A stretch of DNA of 16,116 bases from Clostridia bacterium (GTDB lineage Bacteria > Bacillota_A > Clostridia > Oscillospirales > CAG-272), in contig JAFYPS010000078.1 in NCBI GenBank assembly GCA_017547395.1, positions 1 through 16,116 of the forward strand, in the 5' to 3' direction. Below the pieces are notes generated by a model. It searched no databases and was not told where the DNA came from. It saw nothing but the letters and a program-made list of their open reading frames with translations. A program made the position numbers and the translations under genes. Shown in pieces: positions 5,870-16,116 of this stretch; the stretch's first letter is position 1, and every line of letters starts with the position of its first letter.

Positions 5870-6799
5870 TTATAATATTGAAAAAATAAGCGGTATGGTT
5901 AAGCAAGAAAGCAGATGCGATATAACCGCCATACCGGCAGCAACTGACGTATCCTTTCCGTAGGCGCTTGGTATTACAATAGTATTTAATCCAAGCGGCA
6001 TTGCAAGAGAACATACAGCACAGATATACACTGTACTGTCAAACGGAATGAATTTGGCAATTCCGATAAATGCAAGAGGAAGCACTACAAGGCGTATTAC
6101 CGAAACCGCATAGATGCGAAGATTGGTAAACGTCTTTTTAAAGCTGATTGTCGAAACGGTTATACCTGTCAGCAGCATCGCGATAGGAGACATACAGCTT
6201 CCCGCAGTATCAATCACATTAATGCAGAATGACGGAAGCTTCATTCCGGTAATACCGATAATCATACCAATGATCATACCTACGAACATAGGGTTTACAA
6301 ACGACTTAAGGCGGGTTTTAAGCGTCTGCTTTACACCGTAGTCGGCAATAAGCAGCACCGGCACACCCCAAAGATAGATGAGTATCCAAAGCGGAAGCGT
6401 GAATATGAGATAATCCATAAACACTTCGGGGAAAAGCGCGCTTACAACCGCGTTACCCATAAAGCCAAAGTTTGAAAATGCAAGACCGTATGTAAATATG
6501 TTCTGCTCATACTTGTCCTTTGTAATAAGCTTTGTGATGATAATTATTATCGGAATAACTACAAATGCAACGGCAAAACTGATTAAAAAAAGTTTAGACG
6601 TCGAGGCGAGTTTTTCAACCGTAAAATACTTAATAAACGTTCCCATGACAAGAGCAGGAACGAAAACCGTATTTTCAAGCTTTGCAAGTACGGTATTTGA
6701 ATTGTCGGGAATAAACTTGAACTTTGCAAGAATAAAGCCTATAACTATAAGCGTAAAAAGAAATCCTGTTTGATTTAACGTAGAAAGAAAGACGCTCAT
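5870..6799 (-). CDS. AEC (auxin efflux carrier) family permease
   Basis: A 309-aa integral membrane protein with about ten hydrophobic segments spread along its length, in the five-plus-five layout of the AEC/bile-acid:sodium symporter-like fold. Recognisable family stretches are SNFGFMGNAVVSALFP in the first half, NPMFVGMIIGMIIG near the middle and SLAMPLGLNTIVIPSAYG near the end. Characterised bacterial members carry organic acids such as malate, and plant relatives export auxin; the substrate here is unknown. It is the last gene of the seven-gene operon: the ATG lies 3 nt after the preceding stop, its GGAG site lies inside the end of that gene, and a terminator follows at once. Context favours import or export of a sugar-derived acid (inference). 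Confidence 0.88.
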   Translation of the reverse strand: MSVFLSTLNQTGFLFTLIVIGFILAKFKFIPDNSNTVLAKLENTVFVPALVMGTFIKYFTVEKLASTSKLFLISFAVAFVVIPIIIIITKLITKDKYEQNIFTYGLAFSNFGFMGNAVVSALFPEVFMDYLIFTLPLWILIYLWGVPVLLIADYGVKQTLKTRLKSFVNPMFVGMIIGMIIGITGMKLPSFCINVIDTAGSCMSPIAMLLTGITVSTISFKKTFTNLRIYAVSVIRLVVLPLAFIGIAKFIPFDSTVYICAVCSLAMPLGLNTIVIPSAYGKDTSVAAGMAVISHLLSCLTIPLIFSIL

Positions 6800-6802
6800 T
6801 TT

Positions 6803-7912
6803 TTACTCCATTATACCTGTTTTAAGATCTATTTTATAAATTCTATCGTAACTGAACGTTACCTTTTCATTTTCGCGGTCAATTGTAACGTTGTCAAAGA
6901 ATTTCTGACCGTGAAGACTGACGGATTTAAAGTTATCTTCATAGCAGATAACACTGCCGTCTGCCGCAAGTCTGCGTAAAAACTGAGTTGCGCCGTGCAT
7001 ATTGGGCTGTGACAGATAAACAAAGGTGTATTCCTCTGTTTCAAGTGAGTCGAGCACGGTCATCATCTGAGTTTCGTAGTGCTTCAGCCAGTCCGCACGG
7101 GTAGGCTGAACGGGTGTAACGTCCTTTAAAACGTCGGCAACCACGTCAGGATAGAAATATCTGATACCGTAGCTACGCTCAAAGTTAAGACTTGCTTTTC
7201 CGTTATCATCGACAAAGATGCTCGCACGTTTGGGGTTAAAGGTATAGCCGATTACCCTGCCCTCTACGGTTATGGCTTTCGGCACTTCAGCATTAACAAC
7301 AGTTATGCCATAGGTCGATGCGTGCATAATAGGCTCGGGGCGGAATTCTCCTTTGTAGTTATTGTCAACGTAAAGGCTGACGTGCTTTTCGTGCATTATA
7401 TCTGCTATAGAAGTCATACCGCCATGCAAAAACTCAAGCGAAATTGTACGGTTTTCGGCATTCCATACGTACTTGCCGCCAAGCTCGTTAAAGGTGTTGT
7501 CACCGCCAAGGTCCTCAATGGCTACTGCCATTTTACCGTTCAAGGAATATGCAGTAATCTGCTTATCGTAAACGTACGTAGCAATATCGGTTTCATAGGT
7601 ATTGCCGAGTTTTGTGCCGACATTAGCAGTAGTTTTACTGTTTTCGCCCGCAATAAGCGTAGCGGGGTCAAAGCCGTCTACTATAAGCGTTCTTATTGAA
7701 TCGTTATAATAGTGCGCTCTTGTAATATCCTCGATAATTACCACTGTTCTGCCGCCGATATTATATGACGGCACGCTGACACCGTTTATCGTTGCTGTGA
7801 TATCGGTTTCGTAAATAGTGCCGTTGATATCGCCGCTTTTTGCAAGCGCAGTGAGCGTAAGTAAAAGTGCAAGTGCAAGACATATAAAAAATTTTTTCAT
7901 AGATTTTCTCAT
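6803..7912 (-). CDS. Secreted protein with duplicated stalk / copper-amine-oxidase-N-like module
   Basis: A 369-aa protein with a clear signal peptide: MRKSMKKFF, a Leu/Ala-rich core, and probable cleavage after TALA near residue 24. After it come two related modules: residues 31-63 (YETDI...ING..VPSYNIGGRTVV.IEDI) and 103-135 (YETDI...YDKQITAYSLNGKMAVAIEDL). The second is followed by YVWNAENRTISL, the end-motif of copper amine oxidase N-terminal/stalk domains (PF07833-like). Residues from about 165 to the end form a larger region I cannot assign. The ATG overlaps the stop of the upstream gene (ATGA). A second start four codons in (MKKFF) is equally possible, and neither has a strong ribosome binding site. 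Among the operon's proteins it is the only one with a signal peptide, so it may bind substrate or wall outside the membrane. No enzymatic motif was seen. Confidence 0.7.
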   Translation of the reverse strand: MRKSMKKFFICLALALLLTLTALAKSGDINGTIYETDITATINGVSVPSYNIGGRTVVIIEDITRAHYYNDSIRTLIVDGFDPATLIAGENSKTTANVGTKLGNTYETDIATYVYDKQITAYSLNGKMAVAIEDLGGDNTFNELGGKYVWNAENRTISLEFLHGGMTSIADIMHEKHVSLYVDNNYKGEFRPEPIMHASTYGITVVNAEVPKAITVEGRVIGYTFNPKRASIFVDDNGKASLNFERSYGIRYFYPDVVADVLKDVTPVQPTRADWLKHYETQMMTVLDSLETEEYTFVYLSQPNMHGATQFLRRLAADGSVICYEDNFKSVSLHGQKFFDNVTIDRENEKVTFSYDRIYKIDLKTGIME

Positions 7913-9381
7913 TCAAAACAATATACCTTGGCATCCTTGTCACCGAAAACTTCTTTTATTGTTTTTTCAGCGTTTTCGTCAAACATAAGAATTTCGGGCT
8001 CGCCGTTTTCATTGCCGCCGTACTGCCCAAGCATACCGCCTCGCGTCTGAATATACGTATTGCCGTGCATATCGGGGCAATATTCGTCTTTAAGCGCAAC
8101 GAGGTGCAGCATTCTGTATGCAGAACGGTCAAAGATATTGTCGCAAACGGTATAATTTCTCGCCGTATTTACAAAGCTCCATCCCTTGATAAGTGCGGGA
8201 GTATCGGTATTATGGCGCTGCTGTCCCCAACCGTATCCGGAAAGGCGGATGAAGTTGCCGCTCATTATAATATTTTCCATATAACTCTCGCGCTCTCCGT
8301 CAATCTGGTCAAGAAAGTATTCTATACCGTAAACACACTTTTCGATGAGATTATCGGTATAGCGGACGTTAGTCATCACTACCTTTTTGCGCGTGTTTAT
8401 CTGATGTGTAATTCCGGCATCGTAAGACTGATAAATATAGCAGTTTGACACTGTATAGTTTTCACAGCCGCCGTAAATTTCAATGGCATTGCCAAAACGT
8501 GTAACGGTTCCTCTGTCGCCTTTCGGGTAGTTCGGGTCAAGACCGTCATAATTCTGAATGTTACCGCCTACCCAACCGATTTCACAGTTAGTTACGGTGA
8601 GTCCCACGGTTGTACCTACCGAAGAAACTCCAAAGCAGTAATACTTCATACATATATTATCTACGTGCACGTTTTTATTCTTATTGATCCAGAAAGCTCT
8701 GCGGTTTACTACTGCCTCAATACTGTCAAAAACCTCACCGGGATTACCGCTGTCACATCTTAAGTAAAGCTCGCCCATACAGGTACTGTCCGCAACGGGT
8801 ACGGGAAAATTCTTACCTTTTGACGGACGGGAATGCAAAAGCGTATCAAACTTCCAGAAGATATCAAGGTCGCGCGTCATTTCGGTCCTCATATCAAACA
8901 CACGGCTCTCATCGTCTCGGCAGACAAACTGCAGATTCTTATACGTAGGTATAAGCTTTACCGAATGCTTCTCGCCGCCGTTGAACACAACCGTTCCCGG
9001 ATCAAGAATCTTCTTTTTGTATTTCCAAATATTCTTTTCGCCGCAGTAAAGCTCCCAAAGATCAGCTTTTGCAAGATCCTCGTCCCAGCCGTAAAACTTT
9101 GGTTTTTCTCCCTCTCCGTATGCACCGTAGCTTACACCTGAACGCGTGAAAATCTCGCCTCTGAAAAGGTCGCCACGGCGAAAGAGAACACCGTCTCCCT
9201 CGTAAAGCCAGCTTTTATTGACACGGTCAAGACTCTTCCACGCTTTTTGGGGTGAAAGTCCGTCATTATTATCGTCGCCATCACAGCTGACATAATACGT
9301 ATTGCCCTTTATCTCAAGATTATCGGGGCAAGAAAGTATCTCTTCTTTTCGCTTGTAAAAAAGTATATCGGTATTTATCAT
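7909..9381 (-). CDS. Right-handed parallel beta-helix protein
   Basis: The 490-aa product opens with the N-cap pattern common in pectate-lyase-like beta-helix proteins: TYYVSCDGDDNNDGLSPQKA (28-47), then GDGVLFRRGDLFRGEI (about 62-77) and GVSYGAYGEGEKP (82-94). The middle (about 240-400) holds successive rungs rich in Asn, Ile and Val, such as GLTVTNCEIGWVGGN, NAIEIYGGCENYTVSNCYIYQSYDAGI and similar. These folds usually bind or cleave polysaccharides, but no catalytic residues can be named here. There is no signal peptide, so it should be cytoplasmic. Start choice: this ATG forms TAATG with the preceding stop and has GAAGAAA just upstream. An 18-residue extension (to 9435) would run into the upstream gene and looks unlike the family. 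It overlaps the next gene by 4 nt. Confidence 0.8.
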   Translation of the reverse strand: MINTDILFYKRKEEILSCPDNLEIKGNTYYVSCDGDDNNDGLSPQKAWKSLDRVNKSWLYEGDGVLFRRGDLFRGEIFTRSGVSYGAYGEGEKPKFYGWDEDLAKADLWELYCGEKNIWKYKKKILDPGTVVFNGGEKHSVKLIPTYKNLQFVCRDDESRVFDMRTEMTRDLDIFWKFDTLLHSRPSKGKNFPVPVADSTCMGELYLRCDSGNPGEVFDSIEAVVNRRAFWINKNKNVHVDNICMKYYCFGVSSVGTTVGLTVTNCEIGWVGGNIQNYDGLDPNYPKGDRGTVTRFGNAIEIYGGCENYTVSNCYIYQSYDAGITHQINTRKKVVMTNVRYTDNLIEKCVYGIEYFLDQIDGERESYMENIIMSGNFIRLSGYGWGQQRHNTDTPALIKGWSFVNTARNYTVCDNIFDRSAYRMLHLVALKDEYCPDMHGNTYIQTRGGMLGQYGGNENGEPEILMFDENAEKTIKEVFGDKDAKVYCFE

Positions 9382-10223
9382 TATTTCTTCATTCCATTCT
9401 TCATATATGCAAGTCTGCATGCGCGGGCATAGCATTCTGCAATGTACTCGTAAATGTTCATTCTCATATACTTTTCGTTATCAAAACGGTTGGGACGGCT
9501 GCCAATGTTAAGCTCAAAGGTAAGTATGCCGTTATAGCCACACTTGTTAAGACGGTCACACACGTCCTTCCAGTCGATTATTCCGTCAAAGGGGAGAAGA
9601 TGCAGGTCATCGTGCCAAGTCAAAGGCTGATCCTCACGGCTCTTGCCAAGATTATCGTTTATATGGGTTGCAATGAGTCTGTCGCCGTATTTTGCAAGGT
9701 GATCTTCGCCAAGCGAATAACACATTTCGTGTCCTGTATCCCAGCAAAATCCTACAGTGTCATTACCTTTAAACTCATCCATAAGCGCGGCAAGAAGTTT
9801 TGGGTGATGAATATTTTCAATCGCGATTTTAACACCGAGTTCCGTTGCCTTATCTACTATTTTGTGAAAGTTCTCAATTCCGATCTCCGTAGCATCAGGA
9901 TACTGCGCAAAGCTGGTATACGGATGAACAACAAGTATCGGTACGTTTACCTTTGCGCAATCCTCAACGCAAGCTATAAGCTCGTTTGTATATTTGTCAC
10001 CGTCTGCGCCGCCTGCCCAAATTTTATCGGTATTTGAAAATGGCGCGTGGATAGACTGATATATCATACCAAGCTCGTCAGCAATCTTGCGATAACTAAA
10101 TATACTTTTATTCCAGCCTGTGAAGAATCCTTCAAATCCTGCATTATGAAAAGCTCTTATCTGTTCCTCGCCACTAATGCTGGTTCCGCCTAAAGGGCCA
10201 AGACATAGTTTTGTTCCGTACAT
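9381..10223 (-). CDS. Xylose-isomerase-like TIM-barrel sugar isomerase/epimerase (copy 1)
   Basis: A 280-aa protein of the AP-endonuclease-2/xylose-isomerase-like fold (PF01261), which includes ketose 3-epimerases, inosose dehydratases and hydroxypyruvate isomerases. The likely divalent-metal ligands are all visible: E136 (VKIAIENI), D162 with H165 (CWDTGHE), H187 (ATHINDN) and E237 (ILTFELN). H59 (QSIHAPF), H100 (VVHPY) and an HDDLHLLPFDG loop (204-214) probably line the active site. The reaction cannot be assigned from sequence. AAGGAG precedes the ATG by about 8 nt. It is a close tandem paralogue of the upstream gene, separated by 12 nt, and overlaps the beta-helix start by one base. Confidence 0.85.
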   Translation of the reverse strand: MYGTKLCLGPLGGTSISGEEQIRAFHNAGFEGFFTGWNKSIFSYRKIADELGMIYQSIHAPFSNTDKIWAGGADGDKYTNELIACVEDCAKVNVPILVVHPYTSFAQYPDATEIGIENFHKIVDKATELGVKIAIENIHHPKLLAALMDEFKGNDTVGFCWDTGHEMCYSLGEDHLAKYGDRLIATHINDNLGKSREDQPLTWHDDLHLLPFDGIIDWKDVCDRLNKCGYNGILTFELNIGSRPNRFDNEKYMRMNIYEYIAECYARACRLAYMKNGMKK

Positions 10224-10235
10224 TTTTATATCTCC

Positions 10236-11072
10236 TTACATTTTGTTCTTCAAATACGCAAGTCTGCATGCGCGGGCATAAACCTCGGCAACGTATTCGT
10301 ATATATTGAGTCGCTTATATTTTTCGTTTTCAAAACGATTGGGTTTGCTGCCTATGCTGAGTTCAAACGTAAGTATGCCGTTATAGCCGCACCCGTTGAG
10401 GCGGTCCATATTTTTCTTCCAGTCGATTATTCCGTCAAACGGAAGCAGATGCAGGTCATCGTGAAACGTTATTTTTCCGTCGAAGTCTCTGACACCGAGA
10501 TTATCATTGATATGTGTGGCAATGAGTCTGTCGCCGTAAAGTGCAAGCATATCCTTGCCGCGATTGTAGCACATTTCGTGTCCGCTATCCCAACAGAAAC
10601 CTACGTTTTCGTAACTTTTGAAGGTGTCCATAAGGGCAGCAAGATACTCCTCGCCCTCAACGTTTTCAAAAGCGATTTTCACGCCTTTTGCCGCTGCGTT
10701 TTCTACTACCTTTCGGAAGTTTTCAATGCCGCTGTCGGTAACACACGCAGTGTCCTCGAAGCCTATATACGGATGCACGATAAAAATCGGCACGTTCACA
10801 GCCGCACACTCGTTAGTCCAGTAGATAAGCTCGTTTGTTGCAGCCTCGGCATCATCTCCGCCGCGCCATATTTTAGCGGCTTTTCCAAAGGGCGCATGAA
10901 TAGACTGATATATCATACCGAGTTCATCGGCAAGGGCGCGGTACTTAGCAAGCCCCCCACTGCAGCCTGTAAAAAAGCCATCCAAACCGGCATTTTTATA
11001 AATCCCTATAAGATTCTCGGGGCTTACGCTCGTGCCGCCGATAAGATTAAGACAAAGTTTTGTTCCGTACAT
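10236..11072 (-). CDS. Xylose-isomerase-like TIM-barrel sugar isomerase/epimerase (copy 2)
   Basis: A 278-aa paralogue of the adjacent gene. The two align end to end, sharing MYGTKLCL at the start, ADELGMIYQSIHAPF, GFCWD.GHEMCY, YGDRLIATHINDNLG, HDDLHLLPFDGIIDWK, GYNGILTFEL and a YARACRLAY tail. The metal-ligand set (E in IAFENV, D/H in CWDSGHE, H in THINDN, E in LTFELS) is intact in both. They differ mainly around residues 36-46 and 138-145, in loops likely to border the substrate pocket, and by a short indel in the 190s. GAAGG lies upstream of the ATG and the PHP gene ends 2 nt earlier. The reaction is unknown. The pair may act on related substrates or on successive steps, or may form a heteromer (inference). 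Confidence 0.85.
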   Translation of the reverse strand: MYGTKLCLNLIGGTSVSPENLIGIYKNAGLDGFFTGCSGGLAKYRALADELGMIYQSIHAPFGKAAKIWRGGDDAEAATNELIYWTNECAAVNVPIFIVHPYIGFEDTACVTDSGIENFRKVVENAAAKGVKIAFENVEGEEYLAALMDTFKSYENVGFCWDSGHEMCYNRGKDMLALYGDRLIATHINDNLGVRDFDGKITFHDDLHLLPFDGIIDWKKNMDRLNGCGYNGILTFELSIGSKPNRFENEKYKRLNIYEYVAEVYARACRLAYLKNKM

Positions 11073-11074
11073 AT

Positions 11075-11779
11075 CTAACCTTCTTTTTCGTACGTGATTT
11101 CTTTTGTTTCACCGTCACTCGCTTCGGTTACGTAAAGACCGAACTTGCCTGACGAAGCGATATATTTGCCGAGTCCGATACTGTCAATATCATCCGGCAA
11201 ATAGATTCCGCACTTTACACGTTGAGTATCTCCGTGATAGTCGCCACCAACCGTTACGGCAAGATTGTTATCTTTTGCAATACCGATTATTTTTTCGGTG
11301 TACGATTCTTTATAAAGAGGATGGCAGCTTATCTCTACGCCATCAAGGAACTTTGTGTCAAGAACTGTAGTTCCTCCGCGAAAAGGATGCGCCTGAACAA
11401 GCACTCCTCCCTCTGCTTTTACAACCTTGTAAAGTTCCTCCTGCGTGTATTCATAAACAGTCGGATACCTTTTTAGAAAGTCGGTGTCTACTCCGTAAAT
11501 CAGCATATGTACCTTGTGATACAGCTCCATTGTAACTTCTATGCCGTAAAGCACCTTTACACCGAACTTCTCGCCCACTTCTTTTGTGTAATAATATTCG
11601 TTTATATAACTGTCTACAAACTCAGAAAGCTCTTCTTCGCTGAAATATGACTTCTGATAATGATTTGTAAGTGCTATGCCATCCATTCCGTGCGCCTTTG
11701 CCCGAACAATGATTTCCGGCGCCGCAAGCCTTGAACATTTACTTATTCCCGAGGTGTGTGCATGCAGGTCAATCAGCAT
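11075..11779 (-). CDS. PHP-domain metal-dependent hydrolase
   Basis: A 234-aa single-domain PHP (polymerase and histidinol phosphatase) protein. The metal-site motifs appear in order: HAHT (H6, H8), TNH (H40), GIE (E81), H91, QAHPF (H131), ISCHPLY (H153) and GGDYHGD (D180, H182). PHP proteins hydrolyse phosphomonoesters (histidinol-phosphatase, TrpH-like 5'-3' nucleotidase) or related bonds using two or three metals. Small ones beside sugar genes often lack a known substrate. The start is fixed because HAHT lies five residues in. It overlaps the end of the SGNH gene by 11 nt, with AAGGA just before the ATG, so translation is probably coupled. A dephosphorylation or deacylation step in the sugar pathway is the best guess. 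Confidence 0.85.
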   Translation of the reverse strand: MLIDLHAHTSGISKCSRLAAPEIIVRAKAHGMDGIALTNHYQKSYFSEEELSEFVDSYINEYYYTKEVGEKFGVKVLYGIEVTMELYHKVHMLIYGVDTDFLKRYPTVYEYTQEELYKVVKAEGGVLVQAHPFRGGTTVLDTKFLDGVEISCHPLYKESYTEKIIGIAKDNNLAVTVGGDYHGDTQRVKCGIYLPDDIDSIGLGKYIASSGKFGLYVTEASDGETKEITYEKEG

Positions 11780-12578
11780 TTTCCTTTTTCCCCTTGTAAT
11801 AAATATCCGTTCCTATGTACGCGACAGTCTTAAAATCCTTTGGATTGTGCCTGATTATGTAGTCGATATAAGAATCTATCATTTTAGCGGTAAATACGTA
11901 TCCCGTCGGGGTCATATGACCGTACATAAAATAATTGTCCTTGAATTTTCTGTCGTAATTAGGACCGTATTTATAAAGGTCGATAACGTACGTATTATCA
12001 AAGATTCCCGCTATTTTATAAAGCGCCTCAACCATTTTCTTAGTTATTTCCTTAAGGTCATCTCTGTCAGAATAATTGCAGAACGTAACAAGAAAGAACT
12101 TTGCATCGGGACTTATCTCCTTGTACTTTGCGATGATCGCTGCATACTGACCGTAAAACGTCGTTTTATTGTTTCTGTAGTCGTTTTGGTCAATATCTTC
12201 AAAAGAACCAAGCTCGCAATGCTTTCCATACAAGTCATTGTATCCGAGTGCAATTACATAGGCTTGCGCCGCAAGCTCGGGATTCCAAAAGCCTTTTTCC
12301 TCTGCAAAAGACTCCATATACCACTTAGCAGTCATTCCGCCACGGGAGAAATTATACGCGGTAAGCCCATTCTTTCTCGCTATATACTGTCCCCAGGAAT
12401 ATTCAAACATATCTTTGTATGTATTTTTTCCTTCTCTGTTACGGTTTTCAAACTCTCCGGACGAAAGGCTGTCGCCTATAAATGCAATTTTGCGGAATAT
12501 GGAAGTGTAACTGTAACTGTCAACAAGTCTGTCAAGCGGGTTTTCGCCCTCTCCGTAAAGTTCCTTTTCCCAATCCAT
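11769..12578 (-). CDS. SGNH/GDSL-family hydrolase
   Basis: A 269-aa SGNH-fold hydrolase, a family of esterases, deacetylases and lipases. Block I is GDSLSSG (35-41) with nucleophile S37. Block II is probably the Gly in SRGGMTAKW (78-86). Block III is ALGYND (110-115) with N114. The catalytic His is H221 in YGHMTPTGY. The Asp normally three residues before that His is replaced (MYGH), so the triad is either completed by another acid or works as a dyad, as in some relatives. There is no signal peptide, so a cytoplasmic O-deacetylase of an imported sugar is plausible (inference). The start at 12578 has AGGAGAG about 7 nt upstream. A 28-residue longer form would begin upstream of the promoter and is rejected. 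It is the first gene of the seven-gene operon. Confidence 0.85.
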   Translation of the reverse strand: MDWEKELYGEGENPLDRLVDSYSYTSIFRKIAFIGDSLSSGEFENRNREGKNTYKDMFEYSWGQYIARKNGLTAYNFSRGGMTAKWYMESFAEEKGFWNPELAAQAYVIALGYNDLYGKHCELGSFEDIDQNDYRNNKTTFYGQYAAIIAKYKEISPDAKFFLVTFCNYSDRDDLKEITKKMVEALYKIAGIFDNTYVIDLYKYGPNYDRKFKDNYFMYGHMTPTGYVFTAKMIDSYIDYIIRHNPKDFKTVAYIGTDIYYKGKKENAD

Positions 12579-12614
12579 TTTCTGCTCTCCTAAAGTATAT
12601 ATTTTTTCAACTAC

Positions 12615-12738: not shown

Positions 12739-13596
12739 ATGCAAGTGGCAATTTTTACAAATCAGGCAACGCTTTCCTACAACGGCACAACCGTTAATTC
12801 AAATATAGTCACAGGTAACATTGTCGAGGTTCTTGCCGCGTCAAAAACGGCAGTTGGGGGCACGTTTTCGGTTGGTGATGATATAACATATATCATCAGC
12901 ATAACAAACTCGGGCGCAATTCCCTTTACAAACGTCACTGTGACCGACAACCTTGGCGAGTATGATTTTGGCACTGGCACGCTTACGCCGCTCGACTACG
13001 TTGAAGGCTCGGCTGTCTACTATCAGAACGGTGTTTTGCAGGCGGCGCCTACCGTTGCTTCTGCCGCTCCTCTCACGTTTACGGGAATTACCGTCCCCGC
13101 AGGCGGAAATGCAATGATTATATACGAAGCTGTTGCAAACGGCTTTGCTCCACCCGTGGCAGGAGGAACTATCACTAACACTGTAACGATAAACGGAGGC
13201 GGAATAACTGCTCCCGTCACCGCTGAAGAAACTGTTACAGCTACCGAAGGTCCGCGTCTTTCGATCACAAAGGGCCTCTCCCCTGTTATTGTAACCGACA
13301 ACAGTCCCCTGACCTATACCTTCACTATCCAGAATACGGGAAATGCTGAAGCAATTGCAACCGACAACGTTGTTATTACCGACACGTTCAATCCCGTGCT
13401 TTCAAACATTTCAGTTACTTTGGACGGCGTTATCCTTCCTCCCACAGCCTACACCTATAATGAAGTGACCGGTGAATTTGCAACCGTTCCCGGCGCAATT
13501 ACCGTGCCTGCCGCTACTTTTGAGCAGGATGCAGTAACGGGCAACTACACAGTAACTCCGGGAGTTACCGTAGTAACCGTTACAGGTACCGTTTAA
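12739..13596 (+). CDS. DUF11 repeat protein, no signal peptide or anchor
   Basis: A 285-aa, Thr/Val-rich, nearly Lys-free protein made of two DUF11-like immunoglobulin-type repeats. Repeat 1 (about 33-150) has SKTAVGGTFSVGDDITYIIS, TNSG and VTVTDNLG. Repeat 2 (about 173-285) has LSITKGLSP, LTYTFTIQNTGNAEA and VVITDTFNP. The N-terminus has FTNQATLSYNG and NSNIVTG, a segment I have seen at the start of other clostridial DUF11 proteins (from memory, not checked). DUF11 repeats are usually part of cell-surface proteins, yet no signal peptide, transmembrane helix or LPXTG motif is present. AAAGGA lies 4 nt before the ATG. The gene is a single unit between divergent and convergent neighbours, so it is probably independent of the sugar genes. 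Function unknown. Confidence 0.75.
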   Translation: MQVAIFTNQATLSYNGTTVNSNIVTGNIVEVLAASKTAVGGTFSVGDDITYIISITNSGAIPFTNVTVTDNLGEYDFGTGTLTPLDYVEGSAVYYQNGVLQAAPTVASAAPLTFTGITVPAGGNAMIIYEAVANGFAPPVAGGTITNTVTINGGGITAPVTAEETVTATEGPRLSITKGLSPVIVTDNSPLTYTFTIQNTGNAEAIATDNVVITDTFNPVLSNISVTLDGVILPPTAYTYNEVTGEFATVPGAITVPAATFEQDAVTGNYTVTPGVTVVTVTGTV

Positions 13597-13647: not shown

Positions 13648-13676
13648 AAAATGCGGCGCTACCGAGCCGCATTTTT
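13648..13676. terminator. Bidirectional terminator between DUF11 and araC-type genes
   Basis: AAAATGCGGC (13648-13657) and GCCGCATTTT (13666-13675) pair across an 8-nt loop. The plus strand continues into a T-run of five, and the minus strand ends the stem in TTTT, so the same element can terminate both converging genes. On the minus strand the left-arm bases encode the last residues of the regulator, and its stop codon (13659-13661) lies in the loop. Confidence 0.85.
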
Positions 13677-14456
13677 GGGTGACGTACCAAAAACATTCTT
13701 ATATGCTCTGAAAAAATCGGAATAATTTGCAAATCCGCTTTTCTCACACGCTACCCCCGCTTTTTCCCCGGCAAGTATCATAAGCTGCGCGGAATTCAGT
13801 CTTTTCTGAAGAATATATTTCTTTACACTTATTCCGTACTCTTCACCAAAGACGTGTGATATATGTGACACTGAATAATTCAGCATACTCGACATTTCGG
13901 CAAGCGAGATTCTTTCCGTATAGTGCTCGTTTATGTAATCCATTATTGCTTCTGCAAGCGGAGAACGCTGAACTCCGCTTGTCCTTGTTCCGCCGTTAAC
14001 GTTTTTTATCTGATAAAATACGTCAGTGCATACGGCAAAAAGCACTTCTTTAAAATCTTCTCTTTCAAGTTTGACCGAGCATTCTTTCAGATAAAGAAAA
14101 TTCTGCTCGATACGGTGTCCGCTTTCGAGCAATATGATATCTCTTGAACCAAACGCTTTTCTTATACAGTCGCTTTCTGCAAAAGCGGGGTGCAGATTTA
14201 ATACAAAGCGCTCGTATTCTTCAACGTCTCCGCTCACCTTGAAATTATGATACTCGCCCTGCCGTATCAGAACGAGTGTGTTGGGTTTTAGTTCTTCTTT
14301 TATACTTCGGCTCTCAAATACCGCACTGCCGTTCTTTAAAAAATATATCTCGTAATGAGAGTGCATCTGCATCTCGTCAAAAACGTTTACATTTCCTTTT
14401 GAATAGCAAAAACTGATTCCTTTATCCGCTATGCTTATATTTATAGATTCAGACAT
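13659..14456 (-). CDS. AraC/XylS-family transcriptional regulator
   Basis: The 265-aa product has an N-terminal cupin-like sensor domain (about 15-100, with QMHSHYEIYFLKNGSAVF at 30-47 and LIRQGEYHNF at 63-72) and a C-terminal AraC DNA-binding domain (about 165-265). The two helix-turn-helix units are around ISLAEMSSMLNYSVSHISHVF (183-203) and VACEKSGFANYSDFFRAYK (235-253), followed by GTSP. It resembles sugar-responsive activators of carbohydrate loci in Clostridia. The start at 14456 has a near-perfect AAGGAGG 6 nt upstream; an ATG 11 codons earlier lacks a site and runs into the likely -10. It is divergent from the aldolase-propeller gene and very likely controls it, itself, and perhaps the seven-gene operon. 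Confidence 0.9.
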   Translation of the reverse strand: MSESINISIADKGISFCYSKGNVNVFDEMQMHSHYEIYFLKNGSAVFESRSIKEELKPNTLVLIRQGEYHNFKVSGDVEEYERFVLNLHPAFAESDCIRKAFGSRDIILLESGHRIEQNFLYLKECSVKLEREDFKEVLFAVCTDVFYQIKNVNGGTRTSGVQRSPLAEAIMDYINEHYTERISLAEMSSMLNYSVSHISHVFGEEYGISVKKYILQKRLNSAQLMILAGEKAGVACEKSGFANYSDFFRAYKNVFGTSPKNAAR

Positions 14457-14477
14457 CTTCCCCCTCCTTTTTAAATA

Positions 14478-14506
14478 ATTATATGACAATATTGCAAGTT
14501 TTGCAA
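14478..14506 (-). promoter_or_regulatory. Promoter of the AraC-type regulator
   Basis: On the minus strand TATAAT (14478-14483) lies 17 bp from TTGCAA (14501-14506, 4 of 6 to the -35 consensus). The -35 is inside the right arm of the 14488-14510 inverted repeat, so a protein bound there would block this promoter. The leader would be only about 15 nt, placing the AAGGAGG site near the 5' end; this is tight, hence moderate confidence. Confidence 0.5.
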
Positions 14507-14556: not shown

Positions 14557-14577
14557 AAAATTAAAGTAGGTGAAAAA

Positions 14578-16116
14578 ATGCTGAAAAACAAAATTAAAAA
14601 TATGCAAAAGACGATTGGTATGCACATAAATCTTAACGACGTCGCAATTGCAAAAATAGCGGGGCTTGCAGGATATGATTTCATATGGATCGACCTTGAG
14701 CACAGTAACCTTTCGCTTGAAAATCTGCTTGCAGACATAATAGCCATAAAAAGCTGCGGAACAAGCGTAATTGTACGAGTACCCGCAGACGACCTTACGT
14801 ACACAAAAAAGGTTATTGAAATGGGCGTTGACGGAATAATCTTTCCTATGGTACGCACTGCAAAGCAAGCGGCGGCGCTTATAGACAACACCGTTTATCC
14901 TCCGTACGGTACAAGAGGTTTTGGTCCGATGAACGCTGTAGGCTACGGTTTTGATGACGTTTCAAAATACATAAGCCACGAAAACGACTCGTTATGCAGA
15001 TTTATACAAATAGAGCATATCGACGCTGTAAATAATCTTGAGGAAATTGTCCAAAACGAATACATAGACGGATATATCTTCGGTCCGAACGACCTCTCGG
15101 GATCTATCGGACAGCTTGGCAAGGTATTCGATACAGACACCACCAAACTCATAAATAAAAGCATTGAAATTTTAAGAAAGCACAACAAATATATCGGTCT
15201 TTCAACGGGAGATATAAGCGAAAAAACGCTATCATATTGGCACAGTTTTGACATTGATATGCTCTCTGCGGGCGCTGACTTCGGCTTCCTGCAGCAAACG
15301 GCACTCAATAACCGCAGAACGCTCGAAAGAATACACAAGCCCGAGAGCATCCATCTTAACAAAACTTACTACACCAAAGACAACCTCACCGAGGATATAA
15401 ACTGCTCGCTGAAAGCCCCGAGTATACTCGACAAAAGCGTATACGACAGTGAATGCTATTCTCCGAAATACAGAAAGTGGCAGTCTGCCCCGAGCATTTG
15501 CATAACCTCCGACAAAACGCTTTACTGTGCATTTTCAGGAGATAATTTTGGCGGCGACGAACAACCTAACAATTACAACGTTATATTAAAAAGCTGCGAC
15601 GGCGGTGAAAGCTGGAGCCCGTTTACCGTAATTGATCACTATGACTCGGTCCGTTTGCACGAGCCAATACTCTGGACGGATGAAAAAGGCACGCTATGGC
15701 ATTTTTGGGCGCAATCTTACAACTGGTGGGACGGACGCGGCGGTGTCTGGGCAATCAAACTCGTTGACGGAAAGTGGAGCGAGCCGAAACGCCTTTGCGA
15801 CGGAGTGCTGGCGACCCCTCCCGTCACTCTTTCGGACGGCAGCATTATGCTCCCCGTCAGCATCTGGAAAAACTGGAGAAACACCCTGCACTCATACCCT
15901 AACTATGGTAACGCTGGTGTATATATTTCCCGCAACGGCGGTGAAAGCTTTGAATACGTTGGCGGTGCAGATGCGCCCGACTCCATATTTGACGAAAATG
16001 CAATAGTCCAAAGAAACGACGGAAGCCTTTTTATGATAATCCGCTGCAAAAAACGTATCGCATTTTCGGTTTCATACGACCTTGGCAAAAGCTGGAGCGA
16101 GCCTGAAACACTTATG
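14578..16116 (+). CDS. HpcH/HpaI-type aldolase fused to sialidase-like beta-propeller (partial, 3' end outside window)
   Basis: One reading frame, 513 codons so far with no stop, joins two domains. Residues 1 to about 255 are a complete HpcH/HpaI (class II pyruvate) aldolase: IDLEH with catalytic H42, VIVRVP with R67, GVDGIIFPMVRTA (83-95), metal ligand E146 in FIQIEH, and D172 in FGPNDLS. Such enzymes reversibly cleave 2-keto-3-deoxy acids to pyruvate and an aldehyde. After a linker (about 256-300) comes a sialidase/BNR-like propeller: QSAPSI, then HEPILW (361-366), and Asp boxes at 339-346 (SCDGGESW), 451-458 (SRNGGESF) and 499-506 (SYDLGKSW). The sialidase FRIP arginine is absent, so true sialidase activity is doubtful. 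No signal peptide is present. ATG has AGGTG 5 nt upstream. Confidence 0.85.
   Translation, partial: MLKNKIKNMQKTIGMHINLNDVAIAKIAGLAGYDFIWIDLEHSNLSLENLLADIIAIKSCGTSVIVRVPADDLTYTKKVIEMGVDGIIFPMVRTAKQAAALIDNTVYPPYGTRGFGPMNAVGYGFDDVSKYISHENDSLCRFIQIEHIDAVNNLEEIVQNEYIDGYIFGPNDLSGSIGQLGKVFDTDTTKLINKSIEILRKHNKYIGLSTGDISEKTLSYWHSFDIDMLSAGADFGFLQQTALNNRRTLERIHKPESIHLNKTYYTKDNLTEDINCSLKAPSILDKSVYDSECYSPKYRKWQSAPSICITSDKTLYCAFSGDNFGGDEQPNNYNVILKSCDGGESWSPFTVIDHYDSVRLHEPILWTDEKGTLWHFWAQSYNWWDGRGGVWAIKLVDGKWSEPKRLCDGVLATPPVTLSDGSIMLPVSIWKNWRNTLHSYPNYGNAGVYISRNGGESFEYVGGADAPDSIFDENAIVQRNDGSLFMIIRCKKRIAFSVSYDLGKSWSEPETLM

Follow-up and report, generated by a model that had tools for sequence, protein, structure and literature searches.

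The 16,116-nucleotide contig JAFYPS010000078.1 of a Clostridia bacterium (assembly GCA_017547395.1), the whole of which is the window analyzed here, ends in a gene that brings two known folds into a new joint arrangement: an HpcH/HpaI class II pyruvate aldolase and, fused in frame behind it, a sialidase-fold propeller of the BNR_2 family. The fusion is real and recurrent; a literature search limited to open-licence PubMed Central found no paper on an aldolase–propeller fusion. Some gut Clostridia thus have an aldolase of the kind that splits sugar acids and a domain shaped like a sialidase in one protein, which probably first frees an acidic sugar and then splits it. The best explanation, with a probability of roughly 0.4, is that the protein acts as a bifunctional enzyme on an acidic sugar taken up by the cell: the propeller would release a 2-keto-3-deoxy acid that the aldolase would split.

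The frame (positions 14578–16116, plus strand) is open from the ATG to the end of the window and encodes 513 amino acids without a stop; as a preliminary description of this DNA, made from the letters alone, had stated, it runs through both domains, each of which was recovered as a Pfam match. Because the contig, the sole one on which the window protein is recorded, also has 16,116 bases and thus ends where the window ends, the contig breaks off within the gene. Judged by fused homologs of 632–648 amino acids, ∼120–135 residues are missing. A gene on a single contig, cut at its end, could be an assembly chimera. However, in a search of a large protein set (7,997 candidates scored, yielding 121 proteins, of which 120 were listed), both domains were present in 17 further clusters among the matches listed (P0002 to P0018, all within the length range given above), which are 60–70% identical to the window protein with 97–100% of the query aligned. 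The region of the join aligns with few gaps across all of these, and the same join is found in the metagenome-assembled genome of a Clostridia member from water deer caecum (locus L001), which encodes P0012 at 9935–11902 (64% identical to the window protein). With the linker shared by so many clusters, an assembly join is very unlikely, and together with the contig from water deer this practically eliminates a chimera. At the genome level, fused forms are rare, with one in the 74 genomes of the family of the fusion-bearing genome G001 (cut-off 1e-40), one in the 396 of its order (1e-90), and none in the families of genomes G002 (70 genomes) and G003 (251 genomes; 1e-90), where the matches were separate halves. 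Each count takes in its center genome, and those of 396 and 251 rest, in some genomes, on a scored part of the first-look candidates. The preliminary description had considered that homologs might always carry the halves as separate genes; this was looked for, and fused and separate forms were found to coexist.

The aldolase half matched PF03328 at residues 13–194 (105.3 bits; cut-off 25), while its scores for the NCBIfam equivalogs of HpaI, GarL, and RhmA were below the respective cut-offs (155.7 of 368.8, 126.7 of 406.75, and 128.8 of 441 bits). According to an excerpt of the work on AbHpaI, the metal is held by Glu151 and Asp177, and Glu46, His47, and Arg72 are used as well (PMC8560999). 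All five tested equivalents (E41, H42, R67, E146, and D172) are kept in the window protein, in agreement with the earlier claim that its catalytic and metal-binding residues are complete, and in 19 of 19 fused rows (18 proteins; L001 and P0012 are the same one). The aldolase clade also includes P0043, P0044, P0047, and P0053 (391–393 amino acids), which have ∼135 extra C-terminal residues, with a Cys-rich stretch in P0047. P0019 (422 amino acids, contig 1449) consists of the aldolase, an initial portion of the propeller, and a terminal dockerin (PF00404), and may be an assembly join.

The propeller half matched PF13088 (BNR_2) at residues 314–511 (49.5 bits; cut-off 31.4), and the sialidase propeller fold was seen on the homologs P0002 and P0021. 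Of the three Asp boxes described previously, two are canonical (SCDGGESW at 339; SYDLGKSW at 499), whereas SRNGGESF at 451 is degenerate. The arginine of the FRIP motif is indeed missing, as had been noted: R2 and R3 of the sialidase triad are kept and the first arginine is replaced, by serine in 18 of 18 fused rows (Ser303 in the window protein). The positions of Tyr and the third Arg fall past the window end and were seen in homologs. Across the relatives, Tyr (79/79) and Glu (81/81) are invariant, as are R2 and R3 in every row that reaches them. By eye, on a sequence alignment, the acid/base Asp may correspond to the Glu of a GGDE stretch, adjacent to the Asp of that stretch; this position is Glu in 52 and Asp in four of 63 nonfused rows. 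The invariance of Glu, Tyr, R2, and R3 indicates that the propeller is probably catalytic, and the conserved residues suggest carboxylate binding together with the residue pair of retaining sialidases. Among the 50 fold matches listed were sialidases, intramolecular trans-sialidases, an Aspergillus KDNase, and one designed protein, but no lyase. That the propeller merely binds or tethers, as a scaffold for the aldolase, had been offered earlier because of the missing FRIP arginine, and a lectin (5mxg) is indeed found among the weaker fold matches (rank 48). This is now decidedly improbable, because the four catalytic positions are invariant in fused and stand-alone forms alike and the propeller also occurs as a gene of its own, although some binding role could still apply. 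There is a precedent, too: in the part of the report available, the sialidase Amuc_1547 of glycoside hydrolase (GH) family 181 works despite the fact that one arginine of its triad is Gln (PMC10067855).

BNR_2 relatives of the propeller are found in Clostridia, Planctomycetes, Verrucomicrobia, and other phyla; in the open-licence PubMed Central literature, no described substrate for this group was found. One of them, P0057 (553 amino acids, contig 2661), has this type of propeller C-terminal to a nucleoside hydrolase domain (PF01156), which is a second fusion partner.

In the order of steps that we infer, the acidic sugar would be imported and processed by a cytoplasmic protein. The C-terminal propeller would hold the carboxylate with two arginines, its Tyr/Glu pair would break the glycosidic bond, and the 2-keto-3-deoxy sugar acid thereby freed would be cleaved by the N-terminal, metal-dependent aldolase to yield pyruvate together with either an aldehyde or an aldose. 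First candidates for the freed acid would be ulosonic acids such as 3-deoxy-D-manno-octulosonic acid (Kdo), 2-keto-3-deoxynononic acid (Kdn), or 3-deoxy-D-lyxo-heptulosaric acid (Dha); carboxylate binding and the 2-keto-3-deoxy route could be joined by an ulosonic acid because it is already a 2-keto-3-deoxy acid. A one-chain enzyme for an ulosonic acid such as Kdo or Dha, in which an uncharacterized sialidase-clan glycosidase that works without the first arginine is combined with a metal-dependent aldolase in place of the NanA type and the acid is converted directly to pyruvate and an aldose, is a tentative possibility. Release followed by splitting, already proposed in the preliminary description, remains the best reading; fusion, intact aldolase, and sialidase-like propeller are confirmed. 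What the genomic context indicates is the class of 2-keto-3-deoxy acids as a whole.

Separate halves were informative as well. Stand-alone aldolases and stand-alone propellers were both among the matches listed in the protein set, and in several genomes they are neighbors. In L002, they are in frame and 12 nt apart, with the stop codon between them overlapping AGGAG; in L012, they are adjacent; in L013, divergent neighbors; and in L014, divergent with a ribulokinase gene in between. A different BNR_2 type (hhalign 96.7 to the main type) adjoins the aldolase or lies one gene off in L015, L114, and L115, and a weak BNR-like propeller, below the Pfam cut-offs and assigned by an hhalign probability of 92.7 over 137 columns, is near the aldolase in L003 and L016. 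Counting L001, the propeller was thus fused, adjacent, or one gene away in 10 of 20 clostridial loci centered on the aldolase (window excluded; the duplicate places L081–L086, L090, L093, L095, and L096 counted once). All loci stem from a single scan, for which two peptide patterns were used, including one derived from the propeller, and 80 of the 101 confirmed loci were kept, so that selection may have caused some enrichment. On the short contigs L009 and L011, the propeller is present and no aldolase is in view. In trees of either domain, the fused proteins grouped, yet were mixed with stand-alone forms, and a single exclusive fused clade was rejected by the approximately unbiased test for the propeller (p = 0.0066; two short rows, P0065 and P0068, possibly fragments, were left unnamed) and for the aldolase (p = 0.0071). 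The present distribution may result from several fusions or from one fusion with later splits, between which the trees do not separate.

More distant propellers occupy the 62 loci L019–L080, for which neighbor counts are raw, without a control set of unrelated loci. Relatives of 2-keto-3-deoxygluconate (KDG) kinase, 30–43% identical to the L008 protein, were found in eight of these (L025, L040, L051, L052, L059, L060, L063, and L074), and relatives of 2-keto-3-deoxy-6-phosphogluconate (KDPG) aldolase in five (L040, L051, L059, L060, and L074). The propeller gene is directly followed by both in L051, L059, and L074 and by the kinase alone in L025 and L052. A distant HpcH/HpaI gene was present in four (L031, L052, L057, and L064; L071 is a further match from a separate search); it adjoins a BNR gene in L052 and is separated from one by a single transporter gene in L057 and L064. 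Around the aldolase of L008, a metallo-hydrolase, two dehydrogenases, and a class II aldolase family protein are encoded, further a PfkB protein resembling KDG kinase, a member of the YhcH family, and a protein resembling KDPG aldolase; several of these neighbors recur in L005. The neighbors suggest that the propeller product enters a 2-keto-3-deoxy acid route, and those of the distant propellers support the link to such acids. Given the aldolase fusion and the neighbor pairs in several lineages, the product would be, or lead to, a 2-keto-3-deoxy acid, which provides a short list of test substrates for the whole propeller group across several phyla.

The same neighborhoods can be explained by a propeller that acts as a uronate glycosidase or lyase (Tyr as the base, Arg holding the carboxylate), whose product would go to the KDG route, the aldolase cleaving KDG or a deoxy analog without phosphorylation. 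This would account for the KDG-kinase neighbors better than an ulosonic acid does, and the sugar-acid genes around the L008 aldolase and an α-L-rhamnosidase family gene near the aldolase–propeller pair of L002 are in line with it. The lack of a lyase among the 50 fold matches listed speaks against it, and we consider it rather doubtful. A further alternative takes the propeller for an anomerase or lactonase that would open the ring of a cyclic sugar acid and so supply the aldolase, a task performed for NanA by NanM. NanM is a propeller, too; NanA, however, belongs to another type of aldolase. NanA takes the open form of the sugar, which NanM and YhcH supply, as stated in an excerpt of PMC8141875. 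YhcH-family genes lie beside or near the unfused relatives in L005 and L008, and none is found in the fusion-bearing G001, as if the propeller had taken its place. However, the invariant Tyr/Glu/Arg set is that of a glycosidase, and ring opening is unlikely to be the function.

L002 continues with a GH156-like protein that keeps five key residues named in the available part of PMC6811678, where a third, buried arginine (R246) is called fully conserved. GH156-like genes were found in 9 of 291 Clostridia genomes (1e-20) and in 4 of 12 genomes (1e-5). Since they occur elsewhere as well, some of them beside AraD-like genes, this neighbor was downgraded from proof of sialic acid to supportive evidence. 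The genome of L002 has a second GH156-like gene (L113, positions 5432–6919 on contig C11 of G002), and a gene related to the dehydrogenase gene of L005 lies on the same contig, as does one for a distant HpaI-like aldolase. The DHDPS/NAL family was uninformative as an indicator because it was present in 12 of 12 genomes and 14 of 14 controls. A gene next to the propeller in L011, L013, and L014 was taken for a "transporter" gene on a match to SBP_bac_1 in L014 alone, at an E value of 0.094.

Several observations weigh against a bifunctional enzyme that releases and splits a 2-keto-3-deoxy sugar acid, with an ulosonic acid as the first candidate. The first arginine is present in none of the 79 rows with a letter at that position (Ser 58, Gly 16, other 5). 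No propeller is nearby in the other half of the 20 aldolase loci (L004–L008, L010, L017, L018, L116, and L119), two of which (L018 and L116) are at a contig end. The KDG-kinase neighbors point to KDG from uronates as readily as to an ulosonic acid. The YhcH-like proteins exceed the cut-off of the broad family and miss that for N-acetylneuraminic acid anomerase (54–58 of 160 bits); their family, DUF386, was found in 8 of 12 genomes examined and 2 of 14 controls, but is absent from G001. The GH156-like protein of L002 is without the buried Arg246 (the position is Leu by eye), and such genes adjoin AraD-like genes in L121 and L123. Finally, the fusion in L001 is followed by a gene of opposite orientation without a Pfam family.

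In the window, the fusion gene is preceded by a divergent AraC-type regulator gene (Table 1). AraC-type genes, likewise divergent, also stand before the L001 fusion and before the L003 aldolase. The minus-strand genes at 5870–12593, beside the AraC gene, look like a sugar-catabolism cluster: they encode a Mem_trans transporter, an unknown protein, a protein without a Pfam family, a PHP protein, an SGNH hydrolase, and two xylose-isomerase-like proteins (65% alike). The product of 7909–9435 (minus strand) has no Pfam family, and part of it weakly matches lacto-N-biosidase; relatives are encoded near the aldolase loci L010 (two copies, 37–39%) and L012 (38%). A DUF11 protein is encoded at 12739–13596 (plus strand) between two minus-strand genes.

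Table 1. Positions of the fusion gene, its parts, and the adjacent regulator gene in the window.
Feature	Position	Strand	Remark
AraC-type regulator, divergent	13659..14489	-	88 nt before the fusion
AGGTG, ribosome-binding-site-like	14568..14572	+	5 nt before the ATG, read directly
Fusion gene, cut by contig end	14578..16116	+	513 amino acids; homologs 632–648
HpcH/HpaI class II pyruvate aldolase domain	14578..15339	+	residues 1–254
Aldolase E41-H42 (AbHpaI Glu46-His47)	14698..14703	+	roles from an excerpt of PMC8560999
Aldolase R67 (AbHpaI Arg72)	14776..14778	+	alignment
Aldolase E146, metal ligand (Glu151)	15013..15015	+	alignment
Aldolase D172, metal ligand (Asp177)	15091..15093	+	alignment
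Interdomain join	15340..15351	+	residues 255–258; few gaps in alignment of 18 fusions
Sialidase-fold BNR_2 propeller, incomplete	15352..16116	+	residues 259–513; fold seen on homologs P0002 and P0021
Ser303, at first sialidase arginine (FRIP) position	15484..15486	+	alignment
Glu473 (FDEN), sialidase Glu of the Tyr/Glu pair	15994..15996	+	alignment
Arg489, second sialidase arginine	16042..16044	+	alignment

Compared with known systems, the window propeller and its relatives share the fold, Asp boxes, Glu, R2, R3, and Tyr with the GH33 sialidases; unlike in these, the first arginine of the window propeller is replaced, an aldolase is fused to it, and the protein has no hydrophobic start (by eye). 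P0012, which has the same architecture as the window protein, is named "exo-alpha-sialidase [Clostridia bacterium]" by NCBI. This name ignores the aldolase half, and sialic acid was not accepted as the substrate on its account because the arginine triad is incomplete. The sialidase clan also includes the GH93 exo-arabinanase. Within GH33, a table in the available part of PMC9120202 places a Kdo hydrolase and a KDNase. The GH181 sialidase Amuc_1547 is alike in being a related propeller with an incomplete arginine triad (PMC10067855, excerpt), and unlike in having Gln for the Tyr that is invariant in the relatives of the window propeller. The aldolase half is 22–28% identical to solved HpcH/HpaI class II aldolases (HpaI, GarL, and RhmA/YfaU) among the matches listed, from which the window protein differs by its added C-terminal propeller.
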